DNA from: Pseudomonadota bacterium
GTDB taxonomy: Bacteria; Pseudomonadota; Alphaproteobacteria; Micavibrionales; Micavibrionaceae
Direction of reading: 5' to 3'
NCBI GenBank assembly: GCA_029558635.1
Contig: JAKQEE010000258.1
Coordinates: forward strand, 1-64,000
DNA: 64,000 nucleotides
The notes under the pieces are model-generated. The model did not search any database. It was not told the DNA's origin and worked only from the letters and a program-made list of their open reading frames with translations. Shown here one piece after another: positions 45,906 through 60,242 of this stretch; position 1 is the stretch's first letter; every line of letters begins with the position of its first letter. A program made the position numbers and the translations under genes.

Positions 45906-46547
45906 CTATTGGCTGACCCAGATAATCCGTGCAATCCAGCTGATCTCTCTGGTTTCGAAGCTGCGGTTCTCATGGTCGGGGTTTAAAGATCTGAGTTCGA
46001 TTTTTCCGGCCGTCTGGCGCAGCAGTTCTTTAGCCATGACTTCACCCGCAGATGTTTTGACCACCACTCGGTCACCGCGGCGGATGGCCGCATCGGGCGA
46101 TACAATCAGGCGGTCGCCTGATCGGAACAATGGCATCATGGAATCGCCAGCGACTTCGAGAGCGTAGTATTTTACGTTGCCCTGCTCGGGATAGGGGAAG
46201 TGGATGTGGTCCCAGCCTTCGCCAGTCGGATATCCCGCGTCGTCGAAATATCCTTCCTTGCCGGCCTGTGCATATCCGATCACGGGAATCTTCGGTTTGG
46301 CGACTGCGGAACCTTTTTCATCGCTGATCAATGCCACGAAATCAACCATCTGTGCACCTGTGGCATCGAGAATGCGGGCGACGCTTTCTGTCGAGGGCCA
46401 ACGGGGTTTGCCGTCGGGTCCGGTGCGCTTGCTGCGGTTGAAGGCTGTCGGGTCCAATCCGGCTTTCTTCGCGAGACCCGATGTCGAGTAGCCGCAAGAT
46501 TGCGCGAGACGGTCAATAGCCAGCCAGATGGTTTCGTGGGTTAACAT
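45906..46547 (-). CDS. S24-family (LexA/CI-like) transcriptional repressor, divergent to virion cluster
   Basis: HTH-like N-terminus; YAQAGKEG cleavage-type Ala-Gly; catalytic Ser (AGDSMMP) and Lys (VMAKELL). Confidence 0.88.
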   Translation of the reverse strand: MLTHETIWLAIDRLAQSCGYSTSGLAKKAGLDPTAFNRSKRTGPDGKPRWPSTESVARILDATGAQMVDFVALISDEKGSAVAKPKIPVIGYAQAGKEGYFDDAGYPTGEGWDHIHFPYPEQGNVKYYALEVAGDSMMPLFRSGDRLIVSPDAAIRRGDRVVVKTSAGEVMAKELLRQTAGKIELRSLNPDHENRSFETREISWIARIIWVSQ

Positions 46548-46573: not shown

Positions 46574-46587
46574 TCCTAGATATAGGA
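46574..46587. promoter_or_regulatory. Candidate operator palindrome
   Basis: TCCTA-gata-TAGGA in divergent intergenic region. Confidence 0.35.
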
Positions 46588-46606
46588 AAATAATCTTAAA
46601 AACTTC

Positions 46607-46638: not shown

Positions 46639-46653
46639 GAACATAAAGGGAAC
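46639..46653. promoter_or_regulatory. Candidate alphaproteobacterial LexA/SOS box
   Basis: GAACATAAAGGGAAC = GAAC-N7-GAAC, reverse complement of GTTC-N7-GTTC, just downstream of the -10. Confidence 0.5.
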
Positions 46654-46715: not shown

Positions 46716-47108
46716 ATGTCTTGTCCGTCTGCCTGTCACGAGGTGTCTCGCGACACTATGGTTCCTTTTGCCTCTGCCGAGGCTGCGTGGTTTTGGTTTG
46801 TGCAATCGCAAATGGCCCGTGCCGAAGGAGCCAAGATCGTGGCGGGTGCGGGTCTGTATCCGCGCCCTTGCGAACCGGTCGATATTTGCCGCGAAGTCGA
46901 GCGTCTCTATCGCGGACGGCGATTGGTGATCGACCATATCAAAGTCATGAGGCATTACGGTATGCGGATGATGTCGCCCGATCCGCGTCGTCCGAAGGAA
47001 GCGCGCGCCCATCATGTGTGGGTCGGGGCCATGAAGCGTCTGGAGGATGCTCTGGTTTTAAAGGGGATTGTCGATTCCAGTTTGTCATGGCGGGCGAACT
47101 GTGTCTGA
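46716..47108 (+). CDS. Hypothetical protein, first gene of phage-like cluster
   Basis: ORF MSCPSACHEVSRD..; co-directional with cluster. Confidence 0.7.
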   Translation: MSCPSACHEVSRDTMVPFASAEAAWFWFVQSQMARAEGAKIVAGAGLYPRPCEPVDICREVERLYRGRRLVIDHIKVMRHYGMRMMSPDPRRPKEARAHHVWVGAMKRLEDALVLKGIVDSSLSWRANCV

Positions 47109-47472
47109 AAAGGGTGATGTGGCGTTGGTCGTCTTTAGCGACCAGACAGATTTATGGTGGCTGAAATTCCTGCGGCGCGGGTTTCGTCACTGTTTTGTGG
47201 TGATCCGGATTAATGATCGCTGGATTGCGATTGATCCGATGGTGCATTTTTTAGAGATTTCTCTTCCTGATTTGCCGGAGGATTTTGATCTGGCGGGGTG
47301 GTTCCAGGGTAGTGGAATGAAGGTTGTGGAAACACAGATATTGTTTCCTGAACGGCGGATGTACCCGCCGTTTTTTTTATCGTGTGTCGAGGTTGTCAAG
47401 CGGGTTCTGGGTCTTCACCAGCCTTTCATTCTGACGCCTGCGCAATTGTATAAATTTTTAAACAAGAATTAG
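47101..47472 (+). CDS. Hypothetical; possible permuted papain/NlpC-like cysteine peptidase fold
   Basis: GTG start at 47101 overlapping upstream stop; His (RHCFVVI) then Cys (LSCVEVVKRVLGL). Confidence 0.55.
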   Translation: MSEKGDVALVVFSDQTDLWWLKFLRRGFRHCFVVIRINDRWIAIDPMVHFLEISLPDLPEDFDLAGWFQGSGMKVVETQILFPERRMYPPFFLSCVEVVKRVLGLHQPFILTPAQLYKFLNKN

Positions 47473-47484
47473 AGGAGAGTTCAT

Positions 47485-47736
47485 ATGGGTTCTTTAGTCT
47501 CAAAGCCGAAAGCGCCTAAGACAACCACAGTTGTCGTTAGCAAACCAGCAGTTACGACCACAAATAGTTCAAGTTCTACGACGACGGAGCCCGATCCGGT
47601 TGAAGTGGCCAGAGAGCGTGCCGAAAACGTTCTGCGTCGTAACCGCGGCGTGTGGGGGAATGTGTTGACCGGGTTTCGCGGCATTCTTTCGACCGGTGAC
47701 GGTGTGCCTCAACGCAAGACTTTGCTGGGAGAGTAA
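47485..47736 (+). CDS. Small phage-cluster protein
   Basis: GAGGAGAG RBS upstream; between phage genes. Confidence 0.65.
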   Translation: MGSLVSKPKAPKTTTVVVSKPAVTTTNSSSSTTTEPDPVEVARERAENVLRRNRGVWGNVLTGFRGILSTGDGVPQRKTLLGE

Positions 47737-47739
47737 GAG

Positions 47740-49230
47740 ATGATGGATAGTAAAAAAATGGATGTTCCCGAAATTATTGTCGGGCGTTTTGACGCAGCGC
47801 GGGCGCGACGGTCTAATTGGGAAGGGTTGTGGCAGGATTGTTACGATTATGCGCTTCCCTATCGTGGCGATTTTTCCGGATATTTTTCCGGTGGATCACG
47901 GCGCGGGGAAACCCTGTTTGATGCGACGGCGCCTGATGCTGTTGATCAATTGGCTTCGCTATTGCTTGGCTATTTAACGCCGCCTTTTACCCCATGGTTT
48001 GCGATCAAGGCTGGAACGGATTTATCCGATGAAGAAGCGGAAAAACTGGCTCCGCTGCTTGATAAAACGACGCGGACGATGCAGGCGCATTTTGACCAGT
48101 CGAATTTTCTGGTTGAGATTCACCAGTGTTTTCTCGATCTGGTCGTTGCGGGGACGGCATCTCTGGCGTTTGAAGAGGCTGGGGTGGGTGAAGCATCAGC
48201 ATTCCGTTTTGCGGCATTGCCTCTTAAGGATGTCTATTTTGAGGAAGGGAATCAGGGTGGACTTGATATTGTTTACCGCGTTTTGTCACTGAGTGATTCG
48301 AAAATTCTTTCAAGATACGCGCTTGAAGAATTACCGACCGATGTTCTGCATGGCAGCCGTGATGACCCGGACAGGAAGTTCAGGGTTATCGAGGCCGTGT
48401 TTCCGCTGGAAACAGAAGGCGGCTACGGTTTGGTGGTCTTTATGGACGAAAGCGGTGAGGTTCTGGTGACCGAGCGTCTTAGTCATTCGCCCTTTATTAA
48501 TTTCCGGTGGATGAAGACGCCCGGTGAGATTTACGGTCGTTCTCCGGTGATGAAATCCTTACCTGATATTAAAACAGCCAACAAAGTGGTCGAACTGATT
48601 TTAAAAAATGCGTCGATTGCGGTCACAGGCATTTGGCAGGCCGATGATGACGGAGTGGTCAATCCGGCCAATATCGAATTGGTTCCAGGGGCGATTATTC
48701 CGAAGGCGGTCGGGTCTAAGGGTTTGACACCGCTCGAGATGCCTGCGCGGTTTGATGTCTCGCAACTGGTTCTGGAGGATTTGCGCGGGCGCATCCGTCA
48801 TGCGCTGTTGGCCGACCGTTTGCCGTCACTTGGCGGAAAAAATGCGACGGCGACCGAGATTGTCGAGCGGTCTGGCGAGATGGCGTTGCTTCTTGGGGCG
48901 ACGTTCGGGCGATTGCAGGTCGAATTCTTGCATCCGCTGATTACGCGGGCTTACCAGATTTTGCGTCGTCGCGGAGTTGTTCCCGATTTGCCGCTCGATG
49001 GGCGGACGCTTGCCATCGAATATAGATCGCCGTTGGCGCGGGCGCAGGCGGGGCAGCACGTCCAGACGATGATGGGGTGGCTGAATACTGCCGGATCATT
49101 GGGTGCGGATGCCGTGTCCAGAATCGACCGTGGGGCTGTTCTTGATTATCTCGCCCGAGTCCTCGGTGTTCCTGCATCTTTTTTAATTCCAACAAAATCC
49201 GAAATTTCAACATTTGAAGGAGAAAAATAA
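47740..49230 (+). CDS. Podovirus-type portal / head-tail connector protein
   Basis: W..DCYDYALPYRGDFSGYFSGGSRRGETLFDATAPDAVDQLASLLLGYLTPPFTPWF characteristic of T7-like head-to-tail connectors. Confidence 0.9.
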   Translation: MMDSKKMDVPEIIVGRFDAARARRSNWEGLWQDCYDYALPYRGDFSGYFSGGSRRGETLFDATAPDAVDQLASLLLGYLTPPFTPWFAIKAGTDLSDEEAEKLAPLLDKTTRTMQAHFDQSNFLVEIHQCFLDLVVAGTASLAFEEAGVGEASAFRFAALPLKDVYFEEGNQGGLDIVYRVLSLSDSKILSRYALEELPTDVLHGSRDDPDRKFRVIEAVFPLETEGGYGLVVFMDESGEVLVTERLSHSPFINFRWMKTPGEIYGRSPVMKSLPDIKTANKVVELILKNASIAVTGIWQADDDGVVNPANIELVPGAIIPKAVGSKGLTPLEMPARFDVSQLVLEDLRGRIRHALLADRLPSLGGKNATATEIVERSGEMALLLGATFGRLQVEFLHPLITRAYQILRRRGVVPDLPLDGRTLAIEYRSPLARAQAGQHVQTMMGWLNTAGSLGADAVSRIDRGAVLDYLARVLGVPASFLIPTKSEISTFEGEK

Positions 49231-49949
49231 TGACTGATACTTATCTGACTGCCGAGCTCGAAAATGCTGGTGCTGCGGATCGTCCGCAAAATGTTCCAGC
49301 AAAATTTTGGGATGCTGAAAAGAAAGAAATCCGCATTGATGCGCTGCTGGGCTCCTATGCTGCTCTGGAAAAGAAATTGTCGGGTATGGTTCCTGAAACC
49401 GATCGTGGGAGGATGCTCAAATTGATAGGTGTTCCGGATACTCCTGAAGGGTATCAGGTCAATCTGCCTTGTGATTATCTTGAGGTTGATCCTGATCTTA
49501 ATGCCCGTCTGCATGGTAAAGGATTTACACCGGAACAGGTGCAGGAAGTTTATGATCTGGCCGCCGAGAAGCTGGTTCCGATGATTTTGCAAATGGCGGC
49601 AGAGTTTCAGGCTGAACGCGAGATCGAACGTTTGGTCGAATCTTTCGGCGGTGTTGAAAAATGGCGTGACATCTCCAAACAATTGCAAGAATATGGCGTG
49701 CGCTCTTTGCCTCTGCAGGCGTTCGAAGGGATGGCGTGTTCCTATGACGGGGTGATGGCGCTTTACAAGATGATGCAAAGCGAGTCCGGTTCTTCTGTGA
49801 AAATTCGTGGCGAGAGTTCTCCATCGGATCCGATGGATGAAAAGTCCCTGCGCAAGATGATGCAGGACCCTAGGTACTGGCGTGATCGCAATTCCGCCTT
49901 TATCGAGAAGGTGACGAAGGGTTTTGAGCGTTTGTATGGAGGTAAGTAA
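49230..49949 (+). CDS. Putative capsid scaffold/assembly protein
   Basis: Position between portal and capsid; PAKFWDAEKKEIRIDALLGSYAALEKKLS typical of phage scaffold N-termini. Confidence 0.7.
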   Translation: MTDTYLTAELENAGAADRPQNVPAKFWDAEKKEIRIDALLGSYAALEKKLSGMVPETDRGRMLKLIGVPDTPEGYQVNLPCDYLEVDPDLNARLHGKGFTPEQVQEVYDLAAEKLVPMILQMAAEFQAEREIERLVESFGGVEKWRDISKQLQEYGVRSLPLQAFEGMACSYDGVMALYKMMQSESGSSVKIRGESSPSDPMDEKSLRKMMQDPRYWRDRNSAFIEKVTKGFERLYGGK

Positions 49950-50348
49950 TTATGCTTGCGATCCGGCGAATTCGCGGGCGTTGAAATCGTCGATGACGTT
50001 CTGGAACGTTTTTCGGATGTCGCCGGTCAGCGGTTCGAATTGGAGCGAATAGCTTTCGGCCATTTTGCGGACGACTTTGGCGCGGTGTTTGACGTGGACC
50101 AGATGGTCGCGGAGGTGGAATTTCATCTCGACGTCCATTTCCTGTCCGACGCCCAGAGGACGCGGGTCACCGAACACTTTAACTCCGCCCGGACTCCAGT
50201 CGAGGATCGGGTGGGCTTTGCCGTCAATAAAGCCGATGCATTGGTCGCAGGATCGGCGCGGATGTGCGCGGCGGGATGTGAATCCGTTGCTACCATCGTC
50301 CGAGAGTGTTTTTTTGATTCCAATTGCTGACATAATGTTTTGCAGCAT
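49950..50348 (-). CDS. PilZ-domain protein (putative c-di-GMP receptor)
   Basis: RRAHPRR (RxxxR) and DWSPGG (D/NxSxxG) motifs; antisense within the virion cluster. Confidence 0.85.
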   Translation of the reverse strand: MLQNIMSAIGIKKTLSDDGSNGFTSRRAHPRRSCDQCIGFIDGKAHPILDWSPGGVKVFGDPRPLGVGQEMDVEMKFHLRDHLVHVKHRAKVVRKMAESYSLQFEPLTGDIRKTFQNVIDDFNAREFAGSQA

Positions 50349-50414
50349 ACAGATGCTCCTGTGTTCGTCCAGTAAAAGTTATTTGTATTCGTTCAGTTAC
50401 TTATAGACACACAG

Positions 50415-50444
50415 TTACGGAAACGCTTCCTCACATTTCCGTAA
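50415..50444. other. Perfect inverted repeat between pilZ and capsid genes
   Basis: TTACGGAAA-12 nt-TTTCCGTAA. Confidence 0.75.
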
Positions 50445-50471
50445 TTACCAACCGTCTCTAATATAGGGGTA

Positions 50472-50488
50472 TTGTAAAAAAATTACAA
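50472..50488. other. Short inverted repeat
   Basis: TTGTAA-aaaaa-TTACAA. Confidence 0.5.
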
Positions 50489-50658
50489 GTTTTCGATGCG
50501 TTCAGACTGTCGCACCCTTGTGGGCAGGCGGTCTGGATCGTCGCAGAGAACGAAGAGCCTTATCTTCGCCTGCACTTTACATGGTTCCGAATTGGCCGGA
50601 CTCCGACAACCAAACGGGATTTTTTCCTTTTAAACCAACAAATTAACAAGGAGTAACC

Positions 50659-51489
50659 ATGAGTACCGAACTCAACAAGGCGTTCGTCAAGCAGTTCGAA
50701 CGCGAAGTCCATGAAGCCTATCAGCGTCAGGGGTCCAAACTGCGCGGTGCGGTCCGTACAATTAACAATGTGAAAGGTTCAAGTGTTGTCTTCCAGAAAG
50801 TCGGCAAAGGAACTGCGTCCACCAAGTCCACCCACGGTATGGTTCCGGTGATGAATCTGTCCTATGCCTCGGTCGAATGTGCGTTGCAGGATTATTATGC
50901 CGGTGACTGGGTCGACAAATTCGATGAACTGAAAATCAACCATGATGAGCGTCAGGTGATTGCCAATGCTGGTGCCTATGCGCTGGGCCGCAAAACCGAC
51001 GAGTTGATTATTACAGCTTTGGCGACTGCATCAACCTATAGCATTGCCGATAGTAATACTGGCATGACTCTCGACAAGCTTTTGGGAGCATTTGAATTGC
51101 TGGGGGCGGCCAATGTGCCGGATGATGGCGGGCGTTTCGCTGTGATCGGTTGGAAGCAATGGAGTGAAATGCTCAAGATCCCTGAATTCGCTAGCAGTGA
51201 ATTCGTTGGTCCTGACGAGCTTCCCTATAAAGACACGCAGGCCAAGAAATGGCTCGGCACCACCTGGATTCCTCATTCGGGTTTGCCGATTAACGGTAGT
51301 GATATTCGTTCCTGTTTCTGGTTCCACCGTACCGCCATCGGTCATGCATCTGGTTCCGATGTCCAAACTGATGTCAGCTGGCATGGCGACCGTGCAGCGC
51401 ACTTCGTCAACAATATGATGAGCCAAGGCGCTTCCCTGATTGATCAGGAAGGTGTGGTTATCGTCAATTGTGACGAGACGCCTGACTAG
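50659..51489 (+). CDS. Major capsid protein
   Basis: Strong RBS (AAGGAG); KAFVKQFEREVHEAYQRQGSKLRGAVRTI..GSSVVFQKVGKGTAS phage capsid pattern. Confidence 0.88.
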   Translation: MSTELNKAFVKQFEREVHEAYQRQGSKLRGAVRTINNVKGSSVVFQKVGKGTASTKSTHGMVPVMNLSYASVECALQDYYAGDWVDKFDELKINHDERQVIANAGAYALGRKTDELIITALATASTYSIADSNTGMTLDKLLGAFELLGAANVPDDGGRFAVIGWKQWSEMLKIPEFASSEFVGPDELPYKDTQAKKWLGTTWIPHSGLPINGSDIRSCFWFHRTAIGHASGSDVQTDVSWHGDRAAHFVNNMMSQGASLIDQEGVVIVNCDETPD

Positions 51490-51595: not shown

Positions 51596-51838
51596 ATGTC
51601 TTTACAAAGCAAGGACCTCAGTGTGCTGGCCTATGCCAACAAATTCACTCTGTGGCATTACACGACGTTCGATTCGTCGGTTGTCACCACGGGTTATTTC
51701 AACAACGCGGCGTCGATGCTGCGCGTTAACGATCTGATTATCGTGAATATAGATACGGATGGCACACCGTCTACGGTGTTTTATATCGTCACTGCCAACA
51801 CGGGCTCGTCCGTGACGATAGCGGCCTTTACCGCCTGA
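51596..51838 (+). CDS. Small virion-cluster protein (possible head decoration)
   Basis: TAGGAG RBS; beta-rich 80 aa directly after capsid. Confidence 0.65.
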   Translation: MSLQSKDLSVLAYANKFTLWHYTTFDSSVVTTGYFNNAASMLRVNDLIIVNIDTDGTPSTVFYIVTANTGSSVTIAAFTA

Positions 51839-51889
51839 TCCCTCGCCCTTTGGTCAGGGGGGGCCGCTTTGATGGTCCGTACCGATGGG

Positions 51890-51923
51890 AGGTGGCCCAA
51901 GCTTTCGGGTCACCTCTTTTTTA
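51890..51923 (+). terminator. Intrinsic terminator inside virion operon
   Basis: GAGGTGgCCC-aagctttc-GGGtCACCTC followed by TTTTTT. Confidence 0.8.
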
Positions 51924-51931
51924 AGATTTGT

Positions 51932-51964
51932 TCCAATTAAAAACTGGAAATTTTTAATTGGAAG
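51932..51964. other. Perfect 13-bp inverted repeat
   Basis: TTCCAATTAAAAA-ctggaaa-TTTTTAATTGGAA. Confidence 0.9.
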
Positions 51965-52020
51965 TCCTCAGATGCCGGACAAGCTTCGGGCAAAGCCCGC
52001 CTCGCCTTGCTCGGTGCAAT

Positions 52021-52055
52021 TTTGAATAAGAATTAGAGAGGTTCTTATTCAAAAT
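52021..52055. other. Perfect 13-bp inverted repeat upstream of tail gene
   Basis: TTTTGAATAAGAA-ttagagagg-TTCTTATTCAAAA. Confidence 0.9.
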
Positions 52056-52081
52056 CACAATTTTTTTGAAAGGTTTTTATC

Positions 52082-52651
52082 ATGGCTTTGTCCGATATTG
52101 GTTTATGTTCGCGTGCGCTGGTCAAAATCGGTGCGCATCCGATTGCGTCCTTCTCGGACGGTACGGCCTCCTCTGAGATTGCGGGGCTTTTGTATGATTC
52201 CGTTCGTGATGCGGTTTTATCTTCCTATGGGTGGAGTTTTGCTACCGGACAGGTCACGCTGACACGGCTTACAACTGCGCCAGCGGCTGACTATCAATAT
52301 GCGTATCAATTGCCCAATGATTTCCTGCGTGCGATTTCCGCCGGATATCCTGCGCGCGGGAGGGGGCTTTCCTACCGTATTCAAGGAAGACAGCTTCATA
52401 TCAATGCCGAAGAGGTGTTGCTCACCTATATTTACCGTCCGGTTGAGGAAACATTTCCGCCCTATTTTGACATGGCGTTGATTGCGCGTCTGGCGGCTGA
52501 GTTTTGTATTCCATTGACTGAAAATGTATCGCGGTCTGAAGTTTTATCCAAACTTGCCGAACAGGAATTTACCCGTGCGCGCCAGATCGACGCGCAGCAG
52601 GATAGTCCAAACCGGATCGAGAGTTTTTCCTTAATTGATGCGAGGGAGTAA
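52082..52651 (+). CDS. Tail tubular protein A-like (gp11-type adaptor)
   Basis: ALSDIGLCSRALVKIGAHPIASFSDGT..A..LLYDSVRDAVLSSYGWSFA. Confidence 0.85.
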   Translation: MALSDIGLCSRALVKIGAHPIASFSDGTASSEIAGLLYDSVRDAVLSSYGWSFATGQVTLTRLTTAPAADYQYAYQLPNDFLRAISAGYPARGRGLSYRIQGRQLHINAEEVLLTYIYRPVEETFPPYFDMALIARLAAEFCIPLTENVSRSEVLSKLAEQEFTRARQIDAQQDSPNRIESFSLIDARE

Positions 52652-52653
52652 TC

Positions 52654-54549
52654 GTGAAAACCATTCAGATCAAAACAACGTTTACGGCCGGTGAAGTGTC
52701 TTCGGATCTGCTCGGGCGTGGGGATTTGCGTGCTTATGAGAACGGGGCGCTGAAACTCCGTAACGTCTTTATCCAGCCGACAGGAGGGATAAAGCGTCGT
52801 TCTGGGCTGCGGTATATTGATACGGCTGCCGGTGCGGGGCGTCTGATTTCGTTCGAGTTTAATACCGAGCAGACTTATTTGTTGGTTTTAACCGATCTCC
52901 AGATTGCGGTTTATGCGAATGGAGTGTTGCAAACAATGCTGGTTTCGCCATGGGCAGAAGCGGATCTGGCACAACTTGCCTGGACGCAATCAGCTGATAC
53001 GCTTCTTCTGGTCCATCCTGACTATCCGCCCAAGAAACTGACGCGTAGCGGTGGTGGAGTATGGGCGTTGGTCGACTGGGTGTTCTATTCCGAGACTAAT
53101 CGTATTCACCAGCCAATGTATAAGTTTGCGGATAGCGCCATTACCGTTACGCCGAGTGGAACCGGCGGGACCATTACATTGACGGCGTCTGCCTCAGTAT
53201 TCGAGGCCGGTCATGCGGGGACACGCTTGCGGGTTGGAAATAAGGAAGTTCAGGTCACTTCGGTTGATTCACCAACAGTTGTTACGGTTTCAGTTAAAGA
53301 AACTCTAGGTTCTACGTCGGCGACGGTGGATTGGGAAGAGCAGTCTTTTTCCCCCGTGCACGGTTATCCGGTGACTGTGGCGTTCCATCAGGATCGTTTG
53401 GTGATCGGCGGTTCGCAGGATTTGCCGAACCGATTGTGGTTTTCTCAATCGGGCGATTTGTTCAATTTCGATTTGGGGACAGGACTGGATGCCGAGGCGA
53501 TCGAGTTTGGGATTTTTTCGGATCAGGTCAATGCCATTCGCGGTGTGTTTTCGGGGAGACATCTGCAAGTATTTACAAGTGGTGCGGAATGGATGGTCAC
53601 GGGTGATCCGCTCACTCCGTCTACCGTCCAGATTAAACGCCAGACGCGGGTCGGGTCGCGGGTTGATCGCTATATTGCGCCTTTGGATGTTGACGGGGCA
53701 ACGTTGTTTGTGGCGCGTAACGGTCAGGAGCTTCGCGAGTTTGTTTATACAGATGTCGAGCAAGCTTATCAGTCAACCGATCTGGCACTCTTGTCGAAAC
53801 ATATTATTACCACGCCTGCTGATCAGGATTTTGATCAAAAGCGGCGCTTGTTGTTTCTGGTTCGTGAGGACGGGAAATTTGCAACGCTCACGGTGTTCCG
53901 AGCCGAGGAGGTGGCGGCATGGACTCTCCATGAGACGGCGGGCTCGATGCTCTCCGTCTGTGTTGCGGGTGATGTCGTCTATTTTCTAATCAACCGTGAC
54001 GGGGCTTACCTGATTGAGCAGATCGATGACGATCTTCATCTTGATTCTGCGTTAGCCGGAGAGAGCGGGACGCCTGCCAATGAGTGGAGTGGGCTTGGAC
54101 ATCTGGAAGGGAAAACCGTATCTGTCGTGGCCGATGGTCGTGTGCAGGCCGCTGAAATCGTAAGCAGTGGAGTGGTGACGCTTGATGGTGCGTATAGCAC
54201 TGTCCAGATCGGGTTGCCTTATACCCATTTGATCGAGCCTTTGCCTCCTGCCAATACGACAGATATCGGAGCCGCGCGGGCGGTCCGTCTGGTCGAGGCC
54301 ACGTTCCGTCTTAAAGAGACGGCGGCGTTACAACTCAATGTCGGGCGCGGGTTAAAAGATGTTTCGCTTCGTCAGTTGGGTGATGATGAAATTCTCGATG
54401 CGCCCGCGCCGCTTGTGTCGGGCGATATCCGCGTTCAGGCCTATGGATGGTCTTATGATACCAGCAAGCCTCTGTGGGTGATTGAACAGAGTTTGCCGTT
54501 ACCGTTTGCACTGTTGTCGGTGCAAATGAGTGTGATGGCTAATAGTTAG
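52654..54549 (+). CDS. Tail tubular protein B-like (gp12-type nozzle)
   Basis: TTFTAGEVSSDLLGRGDLRAYENGALKLRNVFIQPTGGIKRRSGLRYI; PVTVAFHQDRLVIGGSQDLPNRLWFSQSGD. Confidence 0.88.
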   Translation: MKTIQIKTTFTAGEVSSDLLGRGDLRAYENGALKLRNVFIQPTGGIKRRSGLRYIDTAAGAGRLISFEFNTEQTYLLVLTDLQIAVYANGVLQTMLVSPWAEADLAQLAWTQSADTLLLVHPDYPPKKLTRSGGGVWALVDWVFYSETNRIHQPMYKFADSAITVTPSGTGGTITLTASASVFEAGHAGTRLRVGNKEVQVTSVDSPTVVTVSVKETLGSTSATVDWEEQSFSPVHGYPVTVAFHQDRLVIGGSQDLPNRLWFSQSGDLFNFDLGTGLDAEAIEFGIFSDQVNAIRGVFSGRHLQVFTSGAEWMVTGDPLTPSTVQIKRQTRVGSRVDRYIAPLDVDGATLFVARNGQELREFVYTDVEQAYQSTDLALLSKHIITTPADQDFDQKRRLLFLVREDGKFATLTVFRAEEVAAWTLHETAGSMLSVCVAGDVVYFLINRDGAYLIEQIDDDLHLDSALAGESGTPANEWSGLGHLEGKTVSVVADGRVQAAEIVSSGVVTLDGAYSTVQIGLPYTHLIEPLPPANTTDIGAARAVRLVEATFRLKETAALQLNVGRGLKDVSLRQLGDDEILDAPAPLVSGDIRVQAYGWSYDTSKPLWVIEQSLPLPFALLSVQMSVMANS

Positions 54550-54570
54550 AAATTTCAAAAGGAGACGAAT

Positions 54571-55008
54571 ATGGGGACATTAACTTCGGTTTTGACGCCG
54601 ATTTTGAGTATTGGCAGTGCCTTAAGCGGTGCGCAGCGCGTGTCACAAGACAATCGCGAGAATGATTTGAGGCTTCGGCAATATGAGCAGAATGCGGCGC
54701 TTCATAAAAAGCAGAATTTGTTTGATTTGCAAAATGCCGAAACCGAACGGAGAACTAAATTAAAAAAACTGATCTCGGCACAACGCGCCCAGTTTGGCAG
54801 CGGTGGCATTCGCTCTGGCGCAGGTTCAAGTGAGGCTGTTCTGGAAGGACTGTTTTCGGATTCGGACATTGAACGTCAACAAGGCGAAGGTGATGTGGCG
54901 CTGGCCAACCAAAAAATCAATCAAGGGATTACGCAGCAGCGTCAACTCAATCTTTTGCAAAAAGAGCAGTTGCGCCAGAAAACCATTTTGAACACCCTGC
55001 TTAGCTAA
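54571..55008 (+). CDS. Putative internal virion protein
   Basis: Helical, LSGAQRVSQDNREN..RAQFGSGGIRSGAGS; position after the nozzle gene. Confidence 0.65.
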   Translation: MGTLTSVLTPILSIGSALSGAQRVSQDNRENDLRLRQYEQNAALHKKQNLFDLQNAETERRTKLKKLISAQRAQFGSGGIRSGAGSSEAVLEGLFSDSDIERQQGEGDVALANQKINQGITQQRQLNLLQKEQLRQKTILNTLLS

Positions 55009-55032
55009 TCCGCTTTTAAAAGGAATAAATTT

Positions 55033-57054
55033 ATGACCGAGCATATTAGAATGCCCGATGTGGTGCCGCTTGTGCGCTATCTGGCGAATGGCACGCAGAG
55101 CGTCTTTGAATATCCGTTTCCGATCTTTGCAAGTGAAGATCTGAAGGTTTTGTTTGATGGGGCGGAACAAATATCAGGATTTACGATTGATGGAGCCGGT
55201 GCAACTGCCGGCGGAACTGTAACGTTCGATGTTGCTCCTATTTCGGATGTTGTCGTGACGTTGGAACGGCGGATGGCGTTTGAACGGCTCACCGATTTTG
55301 TCGAAGGTGGCAATTTTGCGGCTGCGGCCATTAATGCCGAGCTTGATTTTCTGGTGGCGGGTCTTCAACAGGTTTCGCGTGACCAGATTCCGATGTTACG
55401 TTTCGATGAGGGGGAAGCGCCTTCGGTGACGTCTTTGCCTGCGCGGGATGTGCGGGCGGGGAAGGCACTCGGGTTTGACGGCAATGGCGACCCTGTGGCG
55501 GTGTCTTTAGCGGGCAGTATGGCTGCTCCTGATTTCACGGCTGTGGGGAATGGTGCGGTGACGCGCACTAACCATGACAAATTTTCCGATTTTGTATCGG
55601 TCAAGGATTTCGGCGCTGTGGGTGACGGTCTGACCGATGATACTTTGGCCTTTCAGCAGGCTTTGGCGGCGCACGATCATGTCTTTGTACCCAGTGGTGT
55701 TTACATTGTTACAGGGACGATTGCAGTCGGCGATGGGCAATCCTTGGCGGGGGCTGGTGATTCGTCAGAAATCAAAACATCGTCTTCGATTGTACTTGTT
55801 CACCTGACCGGTTCTTATGCGCGCTTGGCGACTCTGAAATTGTTCGGCGGGGATGTCGGGATCAAGCTTTCGGGGCTGTCTGGGCCGTGCGTTCAGAATG
55901 CGGTGGTGGACGTGTCAACATGGCAGGCACAGACGGGAATTTTGCTTGATGGCGGGTCTGATACAGGCAAGCCCTGTTACTGGAACAATTTTGTGCGGGT
56001 GTTGGTGGCTCAACCGTTTGTGAATGGCATTCACTTGAAACGAAGCGGAGCAGGGGATACGCCCAATGCCAACCGCTTTATGCAATGCCGTGTTTATTCT
56101 CTGGGGGCTACGACTTCGGGAAGCGGGATTTACATCGAAGAAGGGTCGTTCAACAACAGCTTTACCGATACGGAAGTCAATGTGAACGGAACGGCGCAGG
56201 CTTGTGTCAGATGTGGTGCTGGATCAAATAAGACGATTTTTGTGAATCTGTATTGTGAATCATCTAATTCAGTTCCAAATGTAAAACTTGATGCTGGATC
56301 AATCGAGACGGCTATTTACAATCTCTTGTCGGCTAGTGATGGTGCAGCGATTTGGGATTTGTCGGGTGGGCAGTATACGGCGTTCAATGCGGGGTATCCT
56401 TATAAAAACCGTTTGCAGAAAACGACTTGTACCGACCTAACGTCAACTTTGCAGCGCTATGATACTGAGTATATCGACGCAAGCGGGACGGTGACACTTG
56501 ATTTATCGCACTCTATCCATCTGGTGTCGTCTTATGGTGGCGCGTTGACGGTGCAGTTGCCCAATGCCGCCGATGCGGCGGCGGCGATGATGATGGTCAA
56601 GAAAATCGACACATCAAAAAACATTATCACCGTAACGGAATCAGGCGGAACAGGGCCGGATGATCGTTCCTATTATCTGGGCGGAGAAAACGATTTCGTG
56701 ATGATGATGTCGAACGGGGCGGAATGGTTTGTGATTTCAACCAACCGTTCGGCGGGGAATACACGCTATTACGACGGGTCGGGGACATATGATATCGACA
56801 TGGCGGTGGATGTGTATTTGTTGTCTTCCTATGGCGGGGTTTTGACGGCGAGGTTGCCGCCAGCCAATGCACCGGAAGCGATCGGGCGGATGGTCACAAT
56901 CAAGAAAACTGACGTATCGGCCAATCCTGTCATGGTTTCCGAGTTGGGTGGTTCGGGTCCGGACCAGTATACCCAATCGTTGACCTCACAATTTCAGTCG
57001 ATCACGGTCGTGTCCGATGGCGGGCATTGGTATATTGTCAGCCGCTTTTCTTAG
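55033..57054 (+). CDS. Tail fibre/tailspike with pectate-lyase-like beta-helix
   Basis: T7-like N-terminus (YLANGTQSVFEYPFPIFASEDLKV) then VSVKDFGAVGDGLTDDTLAFQQAL beta-helix motif. Confidence 0.88.
   Translation: MTEHIRMPDVVPLVRYLANGTQSVFEYPFPIFASEDLKVLFDGAEQISGFTIDGAGATAGGTVTFDVAPISDVVVTLERRMAFERLTDFVEGGNFAAAAINAELDFLVAGLQQVSRDQIPMLRFDEGEAPSVTSLPARDVRAGKALGFDGNGDPVAVSLAGSMAAPDFTAVGNGAVTRTNHDKFSDFVSVKDFGAVGDGLTDDTLAFQQALAAHDHVFVPSGVYIVTGTIAVGDGQSLAGAGDSSEIKTSSSIVLVHLTGSYARLATLKLFGGDVGIKLSGLSGPCVQNAVVDVSTWQAQTGILLDGGSDTGKPCYWNNFVRVLVAQPFVNGIHLKRSGAGDTPNANRFMQCRVYSLGATTSGSGIYIEEGSFNNSFTDTEVNVNGTAQACVRCGAGSNKTIFVNLYCESSNSVPNVKLDAGSIETAIYNLLSASDGAAIWDLSGGQYTAFNAGYPYKNRLQKTTCTDLTSTLQRYDTEYIDASGTVTLDLSHSIHLVSSYGGALTVQLPNAADAAAAMMMVKKIDTSKNIITVTESGGTGPDDRSYYLGGENDFVMMMSNGAEWFVISTNRSAGNTRYYDGSGTYDIDMAVDVYLLSSYGGVLTARLPPANAPEAIGRMVTIKKTDVSANPVMVSELGGSGPDQYTQSLTSQFQSITVVSDGGHWYIVSRFS
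56458..57051 (+). repeat. Two tandem ~100-aa C-terminal tailspike modules
   Basis: (HSIHLVSSYGGALTVQLP..VKKIDTSKNIITVTESGGTGPD) vs (VDVYLLSSYGGVLTARLP..IKKTDVSANPVMVSELGGSGPD). Confidence 0.8.
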
Positions 57055-57109
57055 ATTTTTGGTTTTTTTCCGACTCAAAACTCGTTGAAAAGATGAACAG
57101 GGGAATGTT

Positions 57110-57439
57110 TTGAAATCTATTACAATTGAAGAGACCACGCGGGCGCAGGTGGCGGAATTCCTGCCGCGCGCTATATCCAAGGCTTTGCAGTCTTACCACG
57201 AATTTATGGAAGGGACCGCGTTTGGTGAGGAAGCTAAAGAGTTTTCCGATGCGCATAAGGCGGCGAAAGTCGCCATTTCGCATATCGAGCTTTTGATCAA
57301 GCTTGCGAAATGGGCTGACCTGCCGGATGCGGCGATTGAAAGCAAAGGGGAGTTGGATGAATTCTCGAATCTTATGAATCGCGCTGAAGGTGATGTCAAA
57401 GATTATTACGCCCACAGGGTTGAAGGTGATGACGAATAA
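57110..57439 (+). CDS. Small helical protein preceding terL (TerS candidate)
   Basis: TTG start with GGGGA upstream; directly upstream of terL. Confidence 0.5.
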   Translation: MKSITIEETTRAQVAEFLPRAISKALQSYHEFMEGTAFGEEAKEFSDAHKAAKVAISHIELLIKLAKWADLPDAAIESKGELDEFSNLMNRAEGDVKDYYAHRVEGDDE

Positions 57440-57441
57440 AA

Positions 57442-58923
57442 ATGGTTTCAAGAGACTGTGGATTTCCGCTTTTCGTGGCGCTGTGGAACAGGGTACAAGG
57501 CCTGTCGACCCCGGCGGTGCATTTCGTGATCGCGGCGTTTTTAGAGACGAGTTGGGAGCGCGGGGACAGGCGGCTGTTGCTGATGGCATTCCGTGCGTGC
57601 GGGAAATCGACACTTGTTGGTCTGTTTTGCGTTTGGCTTTTGTTAAAGTCACCTGACGTTCGGATACTGGTTTTATCTGCCGATCTGCCGCTGGCCAAAA
57701 AGATGGTGCGAAATGCCAAGCGGATACTGGAAAAGCATCCACTCACACGGCATTTGAAACCTGCAGCGCTTGATCAGTGGGCAAGTGACCGGTTTACGGT
57801 GAACCGCGAGACAGAACTTCGCGACCCGTCGATGCTGGCCAAGGGGATTATGAGCAACCTGACGGGGACACGTGCTGATGTGGTGATCTGTGATGATGTC
57901 GAGGTGCCTAAAACTAGCGATACGTCCGGGAAACGCGCATTTCTGCGCGAGAGGTTGTTGGAACTGGATTATATTCTGACACCCGATGGAACGCAGTTAT
58001 ATGTCGGGACGCCGCATTGTTTCCACTCGATTTATGCGGAGAAACCTTTGGGCGAATATGGGGAGGCCCAGATTTTTCTCGAAGGTTTTTTGCGGATGGT
58101 GTTGCCTGTTTTAAACGCGCGGGGTGAGAGTGTGTGGCCCGAACGGTTTCCATTGGAGAAAATCCGTGCGATTGAAAAACGCACGGGTCCTGCGCATTTC
58201 AAAAGCCAGATGATGTGCGAGATTTTCAATATTGCGGACGGGTATTTTTCGGCTGACCAGCTTGGGATTTATCAAAAGATTATTGATTATCGCGAGGCGA
58301 ACGGGCGGCCTGTGCTTGAAATTGGCGGGCGGAAGATGGTGTCTGTTTCGGCGTGGTGGGACCCGTCTTTCGGTAAAGACGGTGGTGACCGCAGTATATT
58401 GGCGATTGTCTATACTGATGAGGACGGGGAATATTTCCTTCATCATCTGGAGCAAATCAAAACCGATGCGAAGAGTAAGGACGATGAAGCTACGCAGCAA
58501 TGTAAACAAGTGGCAGAGTTGGCAGCGCGGTTTTATTTGCCGTCTATAGCTCTTGAAACCAACGGGATTGGCAAGTTTCTGCCAGGAATTTTGCGTCGGG
58601 AGCTGGCGGCGATGAGATTGACTTGCGCGGTGTGTGAGATCACGTCGAACAAGCCTAAGGCTGTGCGTATTCTGGAATCTCTGGATGCGGTGATGGCGGC
58701 ACGGGCGCTCCATATTCACGGATCGGTTCTCAGGACGCCGTTTTTATCCGAGCTTGAGGATTGGCGGCCCACGGGCAATCGGGGACATGACGATTGTCTG
58801 GATGCGGTGGCAGGAGCGATTTCGTTAGAGCCGGTGCGGATCAAACGTGTGATGACGGGTAGAGGAGCTGCATCATGGCGCGGGGTGCAGCCGCATACGG
58901 CGCAAAGTGAGTTTGAGGTTTAG
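57442..58923 (+). CDS. Terminase large subunit
   Basis: Walker A-like AFRACGKST, Walker B VVICDDVE, nuclease motifs WWDPSFGKDGGDRS and DDCLDAVAGA. Confidence 0.9.
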   Translation: MVSRDCGFPLFVALWNRVQGLSTPAVHFVIAAFLETSWERGDRRLLLMAFRACGKSTLVGLFCVWLLLKSPDVRILVLSADLPLAKKMVRNAKRILEKHPLTRHLKPAALDQWASDRFTVNRETELRDPSMLAKGIMSNLTGTRADVVICDDVEVPKTSDTSGKRAFLRERLLELDYILTPDGTQLYVGTPHCFHSIYAEKPLGEYGEAQIFLEGFLRMVLPVLNARGESVWPERFPLEKIRAIEKRTGPAHFKSQMMCEIFNIADGYFSADQLGIYQKIIDYREANGRPVLEIGGRKMVSVSAWWDPSFGKDGGDRSILAIVYTDEDGEYFLHHLEQIKTDAKSKDDEATQQCKQVAELAARFYLPSIALETNGIGKFLPGILRRELAAMRLTCAVCEITSNKPKAVRILESLDAVMAARALHIHGSVLRTPFLSELEDWRPTGNRGHDDCLDAVAGAISLEPVRIKRVMTGRGAASWRGVQPHTAQSEFEV

Positions 58924-58934
58924 GAAACAATAAA

Positions 58935-59180
58935 ATGACTGATTTTTTGGATGCGTTCGGGTGGTGGATTGCGGTGATCGAATTGCCTGTGTTGTCGGCC
59001 TTGTTCTGGATGATCCAGCATTTAAGAGACGATCTTGCCAACCACAGGCTGGAGGTCGCAAAGAATTATGCGCAGGTGCAGGATTTGCGGTTGCTGGAAA
59101 ACCGTATCACGTCGCATTTGCTGCGGATCGAAGCCAAGCTCGATGTTACGGCGCTTAAAGCCGAGAAAAATTCCCAATAG
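58935..59180 (+). CDS. Small membrane-anchored phage protein (lysis/spanin-holin region)
   Basis: N-terminal TM plus coiled coil. Confidence 0.6.
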   Translation: MTDFLDAFGWWIAVIELPVLSALFWMIQHLRDDLANHRLEVAKNYAQVQDLRLLENRITSHLLRIEAKLDVTALKAEKNSQ

Positions 59181-59192
59181 AAAGGATTAATC

Positions 59193-59675
59193 ATGGATAA
59201 ACCGAAATTGACACCGGTGCCCAAAGAGGCAGCGGACGAGAACGCACGTGAATTTTATAAGGAAATGGAAGTTGATATTCTGGCGCGGACCATTTGGGGC
59301 GAGGCCCGCGGTGAAGGGAAGACAGGGATGGAGGCCGTGGCGATGGTTATTCTCAACCGTGCGACAGTAGCGCAGGCGCGCGGCGGGTACTGGTGGGGGA
59401 ATTCTGTAATCGAGGTTTGTCAAAAACCTTATCAGTTTTCCTGTTGGAACAAGGAAGATCCGAATTACCGGAAGCTGATTTCAGTGAATGACAGTGATGT
59501 TTATTTTGCAACGGCACAGCGTGTGGCTCGGCGGGCCTTGCTTGGGTTTCTAAAGGATTCGACTTACGGGGCAACGCATTATCATGCGCGTCATGCCTCG
59601 CCGTCATGGACCAAGGGGCAGCGTCCGTGTGCGGTGATTGGTCGTCACATTTTCTATCATCTGGCGGAGGGATAG
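59193..59675 (+). CDS. SleB-like cell wall hydrolase (endolysin)
   Basis: LARTIWGEARGEGKTGMEAVAMVILNR..SCWN..ATHYHA. Confidence 0.88.
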   Translation: MDKPKLTPVPKEAADENAREFYKEMEVDILARTIWGEARGEGKTGMEAVAMVILNRATVAQARGGYWWGNSVIEVCQKPYQFSCWNKEDPNYRKLISVNDSDVYFATAQRVARRALLGFLKDSTYGATHYHARHASPSWTKGQRPCAVIGRHIFYHLAEG

Positions 59676-59678
59676 CAC

Positions 59679-60242
59679 ATGGCGTTGCCTGTTTTGGCGC
59701 AAATCGGCATTCCGGTTCTGGTTAAGGGGCTGGCGGAGGGGTTGGCGCAGCTTAAATCCCCCGTGGCGCAAGGGGCTTCAGCTGCTCTTGCGGAGTTGGG
59801 GGATGCGTTTGGCAATGGTCTGGTGTCTCCAGAACAGATGGCCGAACTCAACCGCCATCTTGAAAAAGTTCAGGAGATTGAAGCGTCCGAGCGACAAAAT
59901 TCGATCCAGCAGATCAATGAAAGTCTCAGGGCCGAAGTTGCGTCGAGTGACCCTTATGTGCGACGGATGCGGCCGACCTTCGGTTATATCATCGCGACAA
60001 CGTGGGGTGCGCAGATGTTTGCCTTAGCCTATATCATTGTGTTTGAAACGTCGCAGGCGGCGCTTGTGATTGATGCGATGGAAAAGCTTGGCACGATCTG
60101 GGCGGTCGGTTTGTCGGTCCTCGGGATTTATGTGTACAAACGTAGTGAGGAAAAGAAGTTGTCGTCGCCTGTACTTCAAGCCAAGGAGGAAATTGTTGCT
60201 CCTGCCGCACCTCCGGTTAAACAACCAAAATATAATGAATAG
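59679..60242 (+). CDS. Holin of the 3TM GTA-type family
   Basis: SDPYVRRMRPTFGYIIATTWGAQ..IWAVGLSVLGIYVYKRSEEKK. Confidence 0.8.
   Translation: MALPVLAQIGIPVLVKGLAEGLAQLKSPVAQGASAALAELGDAFGNGLVSPEQMAELNRHLEKVQEIEASERQNSIQQINESLRAEVASSDPYVRRMRPTFGYIIATTWGAQMFALAYIIVFETSQAALVIDAMEKLGTIWAVGLSVLGIYVYKRSEEKKLSSPVLQAKEEIVAPAAPPVKQPKYNE

Follow-up and report, generated by a model that had tools for sequence, protein, structure and literature searches.

The gene transfer agents (GTAs) RcGTA and BaGTA are placed in the Rhodogtaviriformidae and Bartogtaviriformidae, respectively (PMC9662315). The cluster described here lies in a Micavibrio-like predator lineage (Micavibrionales); the host was placed there because relatives in named genomes belong to Micavibrio or to unclassified Alphaproteobacteria. 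It shares with RcGTA and BaGTA vertically inherited, phage-derived particle genes in an alphaproteobacterial host, with terminase, capsid and lysis functions, a likeness that is based on Pfam and PHROGs matches for a cluster known from its genes alone. Its holin also matches the GTA-type holin family PF11351. Unlike RcGTA and BaGTA, the cluster carries podovirus-type genes (PF12236, PF05396, PF19821 and tail tubular). Its capsid protein is ~31–47% identical, over the full length, to that of HTVC010P-type podoviruses (Pelagibacter and Vibrio phages); the genomes of those phages measure ~31–39 kb, whereas the cluster spans ~13.5 kb and has no recognised replication or integration genes. A search of the open-access literature yielded no paper that deals with a GTA of Micavibrio or links PilZ to a GTA cluster.

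The window, which is the whole stretch of 64,000 nucleotides that was analysed, contains the features listed in Table 1. The genes are arranged in the order repressor (on the minus strand), orfA to orfC, portal, scaffold, pilZ (on the minus strand), capsid, orfD, two tail tubular genes, orfE, spike, orfF, TerL, orfG, lysozyme and holin; one cluster gene order is common to three families. The cluster is flanked by degP and nhaA. No integrase or replication gene was recognised between 43.9 and 61.6 kb by inspection of ORFs and family scans, several small ORFs being left without assignment, and orfA, orfB and orfC had no Pfam match. Riboswitches and other known RNAs were rejected as components of the cluster, as the Rfam search of 45.2–60.4 kb gave no match at E<=1. 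A second, diverged capsid fragment was seen on another contig of the same genome (G000:C194:11-622).

Table 1. Positions of the cluster genes, the pilZ gene and the putative control sites in the window.
Feature	Position	Strand	Remarks
S24-peptidase-type repressor	45906..46547	-	PF00717, E=2.6e-22; heads the cluster, conserved synteny
Cluster operator (putative), TAGGAAAATAATCTTA	46583..46598	+	Repressor region; 1 mismatch to TAGGA-N6-TCCTA
LexA/SOS-type box (putative), GAACATAAAGGGAAC	46639..46653	+	Repressor-orfA region
Early genes orfA (46716-47108), orfB (47068-47472), orfC (47485-47736)	46716..47736	+	Collinear in the order
Portal / head-tail connector	47740..49230	+	PF12236, E=7.6e-132; phrog_332
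Scaffold / T7-type capsid assembly protein	49230..49949	+	PF05396, E=1.2e-10
pilZ	49950..50348	-	132 aa; PilZ beta barrel between an N-terminal tail (residues 1-23, low confidence) and a C-terminal helix (109-130)
DWSPGG codons ([DN]xSxxG, c-di-GMP motif 2)	50184..50201	-	Motif in 85/88 homologues
RRAHPRR codons (RxxxR, c-di-GMP motif 1)	50253..50273	-	Motif in 88/88 homologues
PilZ-capsid divergent intergenic region	50349..50658		Capsid promoter and TAGGA-N6-TCCTA in most other genera
Sigma-70-like promoter match, candidate for pilZ	50460..50488	-	TTGTAA-17-TATATT; consensus match only
Major capsid protein	50659..51489	+	PF19821, E=5.9e-82; phrog_3437
orfD, tail tubular A (52082-52651), tail tubular B (52654-54549), orfE, spike (55033-57054), orfF	51596..57439	+	phrog_394, phrog_376; spike PF12708
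Terminase large subunit (TerL)	57442..58923	+	phrog_38, E=1.7e-78
orfG, cell-wall hydrolase/lysozyme (59193-59675), GTA-type holin (59679-60242)	58935..60242	+	PF07486, PF11351
Host nhaA	60316..61617	+	PF06965; right cluster flank in several lineages by synteny

The pilZ reading frame starts with ATG, preceded by AGGAG. Its stop abuts that of the scaffold gene (tail-to-tail, 0 bp), and 310 bp separate pilZ from the capsid gene, which runs divergently. The original prediction of a single-domain PilZ protein with both signature motifs, placed between scaffold and capsid on the opposite strand, splitting the virion operon and facing the capsid promoter region, was borne out by these positions and by the PF07238 match (E=8.6e-7, 29.7 bits; curated cut-off 22.5). 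The gene had also been described as embedded antisense; the strand is as stated, but pilZ overlaps no cluster gene and is thus not embedded by overlap. The -10 block (AATATAGG) of the candidate pilZ promoter is kept in several members of the genus. Within the genus, median dN/dS was ~0.05 for pilZ and ~0.04 for the capsid gene, from few unsaturated pairs in both cases. Because of this low value and of conservation across the order, the coding status of pilZ is judged to exceed chance.

Membership in the c-di-GMP-binding PilZ proteins (PF07238) was indicated alike by profile, motifs and fold. Residues R27, R31, R32, W51 and G55 were invariant in 64 aligned sequences. The fold predicted by AlphaFold2 (mean pLDDT 80, core >90) was matched best by 4xrn (Z 14.3, rmsd 2.0 over 101 residues), with 4rt1 and 4rt0 tied; c-di-GMP-bound PilZ domains scored Z 11-14 against the model and the weak binder XC1028 Z 5.8. 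A search of PDB sequences with the PilZ profile returned no PilZ chain, and such chains came up by fold comparison only. The Alg44 PilZ domain (4rt0/4rt1) and the 4xrn PilZ, both from Pseudomonas aeruginosa and with c-di-GMP bound, resemble the window protein in fold and motifs at 17-18% identity, but the Alg44 domain is part of a larger protein, whereas the window PilZ has this one domain, extended by a tail at its N terminus and a helix at its C terminus. Closer in size and in having a single PilZ domain are MapZ (5xly, 5y4r) and PA4608 (1ywu), which were also structural matches. These two and Caulobacter DgrA, likened here by description, we take to be single-domain PilZ adaptors; unlike them, the window PilZ sits within a virion cluster. 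GGDEF domains were found in 19/19 genomes searched (3-12 per genome), so that the ligand can probably be made. Judged from sequence and model, the window PilZ very probably binds c-di-GMP.

The distribution of the arrangement was followed in 103 Micavibrionales genomes (>=90% complete), which gave 77 capsid matches. pilZ lay antisense, 289-2225 bp upstream of the capsid gene, in 70 of the 77 and in the sense orientation in none; two genomes of the order have a capsid gene without pilZ (G058 and G074). Among the contigs of named genomes, a set that overlaps the order sample, pilZ was present in 71/76 assessable loci, and those lacking it were mainly from Niveispirillum and Azospirillum, with one Micavibrio-type cluster (L130, in G058). 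The original prediction had tied a recent insertion to the absence of pilZ from all orthologous clusters, which is not what was found. Because pilZ stands antisense upstream in so many of the capsid matches across the order, its place in the cluster is, on gene order, not a recent insertion. The gap between the stops of pilZ and scaffold varied (median 73 bp in 68 loci, range -4 to 3355 bp). An additional gene separates pilZ and capsid in family f7 and in contigs like it (L143 8699-9736, L158 4511-5407, L154 762-1691); that of L143 resembles a sigma-54 activator.

The cluster itself has host genes on both flanks, and the tree distances of PilZ, portal and capsid follow those of the host genes nadK and pyrE (correlation with nadK distances, r 0.77 for PilZ and 0.67 for capsid), in keeping with long-term vertical inheritance under purifying selection. 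Because of the fixed order, the lack of a recognised integrase or replication gene, the host-tracking distances and the low dN/dS, the cluster, which is inherited with the host, fits a domesticated, podovirus-type, GTA-like element. The same capsid gene, mostly in single copy, was seen in 68/82 genomes of the Azospirillaceae (the family of genome G109). In several of these the portal-scaffold and capsid blocks are not adjacent within the stretch seen, and in G115, G136, G137 and G191 the capsid gene is in two parts, 12-43 kb apart, as if an element had integrated in its 3' part.

The neighbourhood of pilZ differs between families. In two sister families whose genomes lack the cluster at this site (f3 and f5), a diverged pilZ stands beside pyrE in 8/10 loci. 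In the cluster-bearing families, pyrE, mostly with nadK, is the left cluster flank in 38/44 loci, and pilZ occupies its cluster position in 43/44. The genus of the window is rearranged, with degP and rarA at the left flank and no pyrE beside the cluster. In a FastTree tree rooted by our own choice, the PilZ proteins of virion clusters formed one clade, with the pyrE-linked proteins of f3 and f5 outside. Several PilZ paralogues lie near CusA/CzcB/CzcD-type efflux genes (L067, L235, L236, L240); the three genomes that carry them (G012, G070, G084) have no intact capsid gene, and in the tree these paralogues fall inside the virion-cluster clade.

On viral contigs, pilZ was missing from 53/56 assessable loci of related clusters, the remaining 3 being Micavibrio-type, and the cluster loci of Azospirillum and Niveispirillum are likewise without it. 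The suggestion made originally that pilZ might be a regulatory cargo gene (moron), that is, a phage-borne gene benefiting the host, thus did not hold up. The opposite strand of pilZ between virion genes would suit such a gene, as would the scaffold-capsid slot, which houses other genes in other lineages. Membership among phage morons was nevertheless rejected on both counts considered, since pilZ is missing from the viral relatives of the cluster and is kept beside pyrE in families where the cluster is not; its vertical inheritance also speaks against cargo, and we consider this explanation very improbable.

Since pilZ and pyrE adjoin in f3 and f5, the subfamily is essentially confined to the order, and relatives of the cluster elsewhere are without pilZ, the simplest interpretation has the cluster lying around a resident gene. 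We regard as rather likely the joint reading of a resident single-domain PilZ receptor of the Micavibrionales, encircled by a domesticated, podovirus-type, GTA-like cluster with its own control. The home locus of the gene would then be pilZ-pyrE, the repressor-to-scaffold block having come to lie between pyrE and pilZ, and that from capsid to holin beyond pilZ. The protein, which very probably binds c-di-GMP, would act as an adaptor in host signalling, its main role probably being in host behaviour, e.g. motility or attachment during predation, and the particle genes would be governed by the cluster's own repressor operator together with a LexA/SOS-type box. We infer both the host role of PilZ and the order of insertion.

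Several observations count against a resident gene. The cluster position of pilZ is very stable, and steadier than the pyrE flank; the genus of the window has no pyrE beside the cluster. The PilZ subfamily was essentially absent from 382 other alphaproteobacterial genomes (one weak match), which fits a gene of the order but supplies no outgroup for the polarity of pilZ and cluster. Alternatively, PilZ may have come with the virion genes and stayed beside pyrE when families f3 and f5 later lost the cluster. Partly deleted clusters that keep pilZ near pyrE (L058, L061, L233) are what such a loss would look like. However, PilZ is missing from the cluster's relatives in other orders, no nhaA-icd (the right flank) was found next to pilZ in f3 or f5, and the f3 and f5 proteins are the most diverged under the chosen root; arrival of PilZ with the cluster therefore appears improbable.

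The persistence of PilZ bears on the resident reading as well. In the 87 genomes of families f1, f2 and f7, capsid and PilZ occurred together in 67, capsid only in 2, PilZ only in 14 and neither in 4 (Fisher p=0.015 for the association, with no correction for ancestry). Of the 18 genomes with no intact capsid gene, several being cases of contig breaks, 14 thus retained pilZ. Eight clusters with deletions visible in the sequence had a full-length PilZ in 8/8 and a full-length capsid in 0/8; these clusters were found via PilZ, which biases the count, and 14/18 is the fairer figure. Because PilZ persists without capsid, it is argued to serve the host apart from particles. The 4 genomes that lost both genes together count the other way, as this is what coupling, or mere linkage, would give.

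The putative control sites of the cluster were examined in the two regions in which they would act. The box GAAC-N7-GAAC, which we take to be the alphaproteobacterial LexA-type consensus, was present in 51/57 distinct repressor-orfA regions (0.36 expected), and a near match of 7/8 bases lies upstream of the host lexA. It was found in 0/75 PilZ-capsid regions, and LexA control of the latter was rejected. The box was also seen in several Azospirillum-type copies of the cluster. A 16-bp palindrome, TAGGA-N6-TCCTA (<=1 mismatch), was present in 55/57 repressor-orfA regions (0.3 expected) and in 58/75 PilZ-capsid regions (0.6 expected); both motifs were derived from the same regions in which they were counted, so that the numbers express enrichment only, while the spacer of exactly six and the recurrence in a second region serve as a check. 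On the capsid side a TTGAC element immediately precedes the operator, which extends into the presumed -10. The window has box and operator at the repressor and no operator on the capsid side, as is the case in its genus. We infer from sequence which proteins would bind operator and box. Most members of the window's genus share a conserved block (TTWCGTAAYNACCRACC, ~50410-50470) in the pilZ-capsid gap, which three members lack.

Coupling of particle production to c-di-GMP, which had also been proposed originally, is possible. In its specific form, c-di-GMP-bound PilZ would contact a regulator or a virion protein and so gate capsid expression or particle assembly. The fixed place of pilZ at the capsid promoter in the capsid matches of the order, the intact PilZ signature and the scarcity of other PilZ proteins beside several GGDEF domains per genome are consistent with such a checkpoint. 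PilZ has no DNA-binding domain, however, and as capsid and repressor promoters share the operator, this would belong to a factor other than PilZ; furthermore, PilZ outlasts the capsid genes, and two genomes have capsid without it. In 7 loci from a subset of Azospirillum relatives (L150 7304-9721, L155, L157 6672-9080, L171 4852-7242, L256, L271, L272), the slot between scaffold and capsid is filled by a GGDEF-EAL gene that also encodes sensory domains; this is real in those loci, not general and suggestive only, and the coincidence may be chance, as the slot takes varied genes. In Niveispirillum-type copies (L146, L148, L259, L260) a response regulator and a histidine kinase stand ahead of the capsid gene. 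For RcGTA, c-di-GMP is reported to reduce production (PMC9143464), and this precedent and the Azospirillum GGDEF-EAL genes make a checkpoint worth testing, although we hold it to be rather unlikely.

A further possibility is that SOS-induced read-through from portal and scaffold, antisense across pilZ, lowers the receptor during particle making. No terminator-like site was found at the scaffold-pilZ junction of the window, where the stops abut, and the median distance between them over 68 loci is 73 bp. The wide range of this distance among loci argues against such interference, to which we give little credence.

The receptor looks like a resident host gene. Micavibrionales genomes mostly carry one or two PilZ genes, compared with 15 in the predator Bdellovibrio (PMC3271064), and in the 3.6-Mb genome of the window a profile search found this protein as the sole PilZ domain above the cut-off. 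In a still more doubtful extension of the checkpoint, GTA release in the predatory Micavibrionales would be set off by DNA damage, through LexA and the cluster repressor, and gated by c-di-GMP via the principal PilZ receptor at the capsid promoter. In addition, the locus indicates a family of GTA-like clusters of podovirus type, of which no description was found and which is present in most Azospirillaceae genomes searched as well; its LexA-type and repressor sites allow simple induction tests. A principal PilZ receptor fixed inside a particle cluster offers a direct handle on the action of c-di-GMP in these predators.
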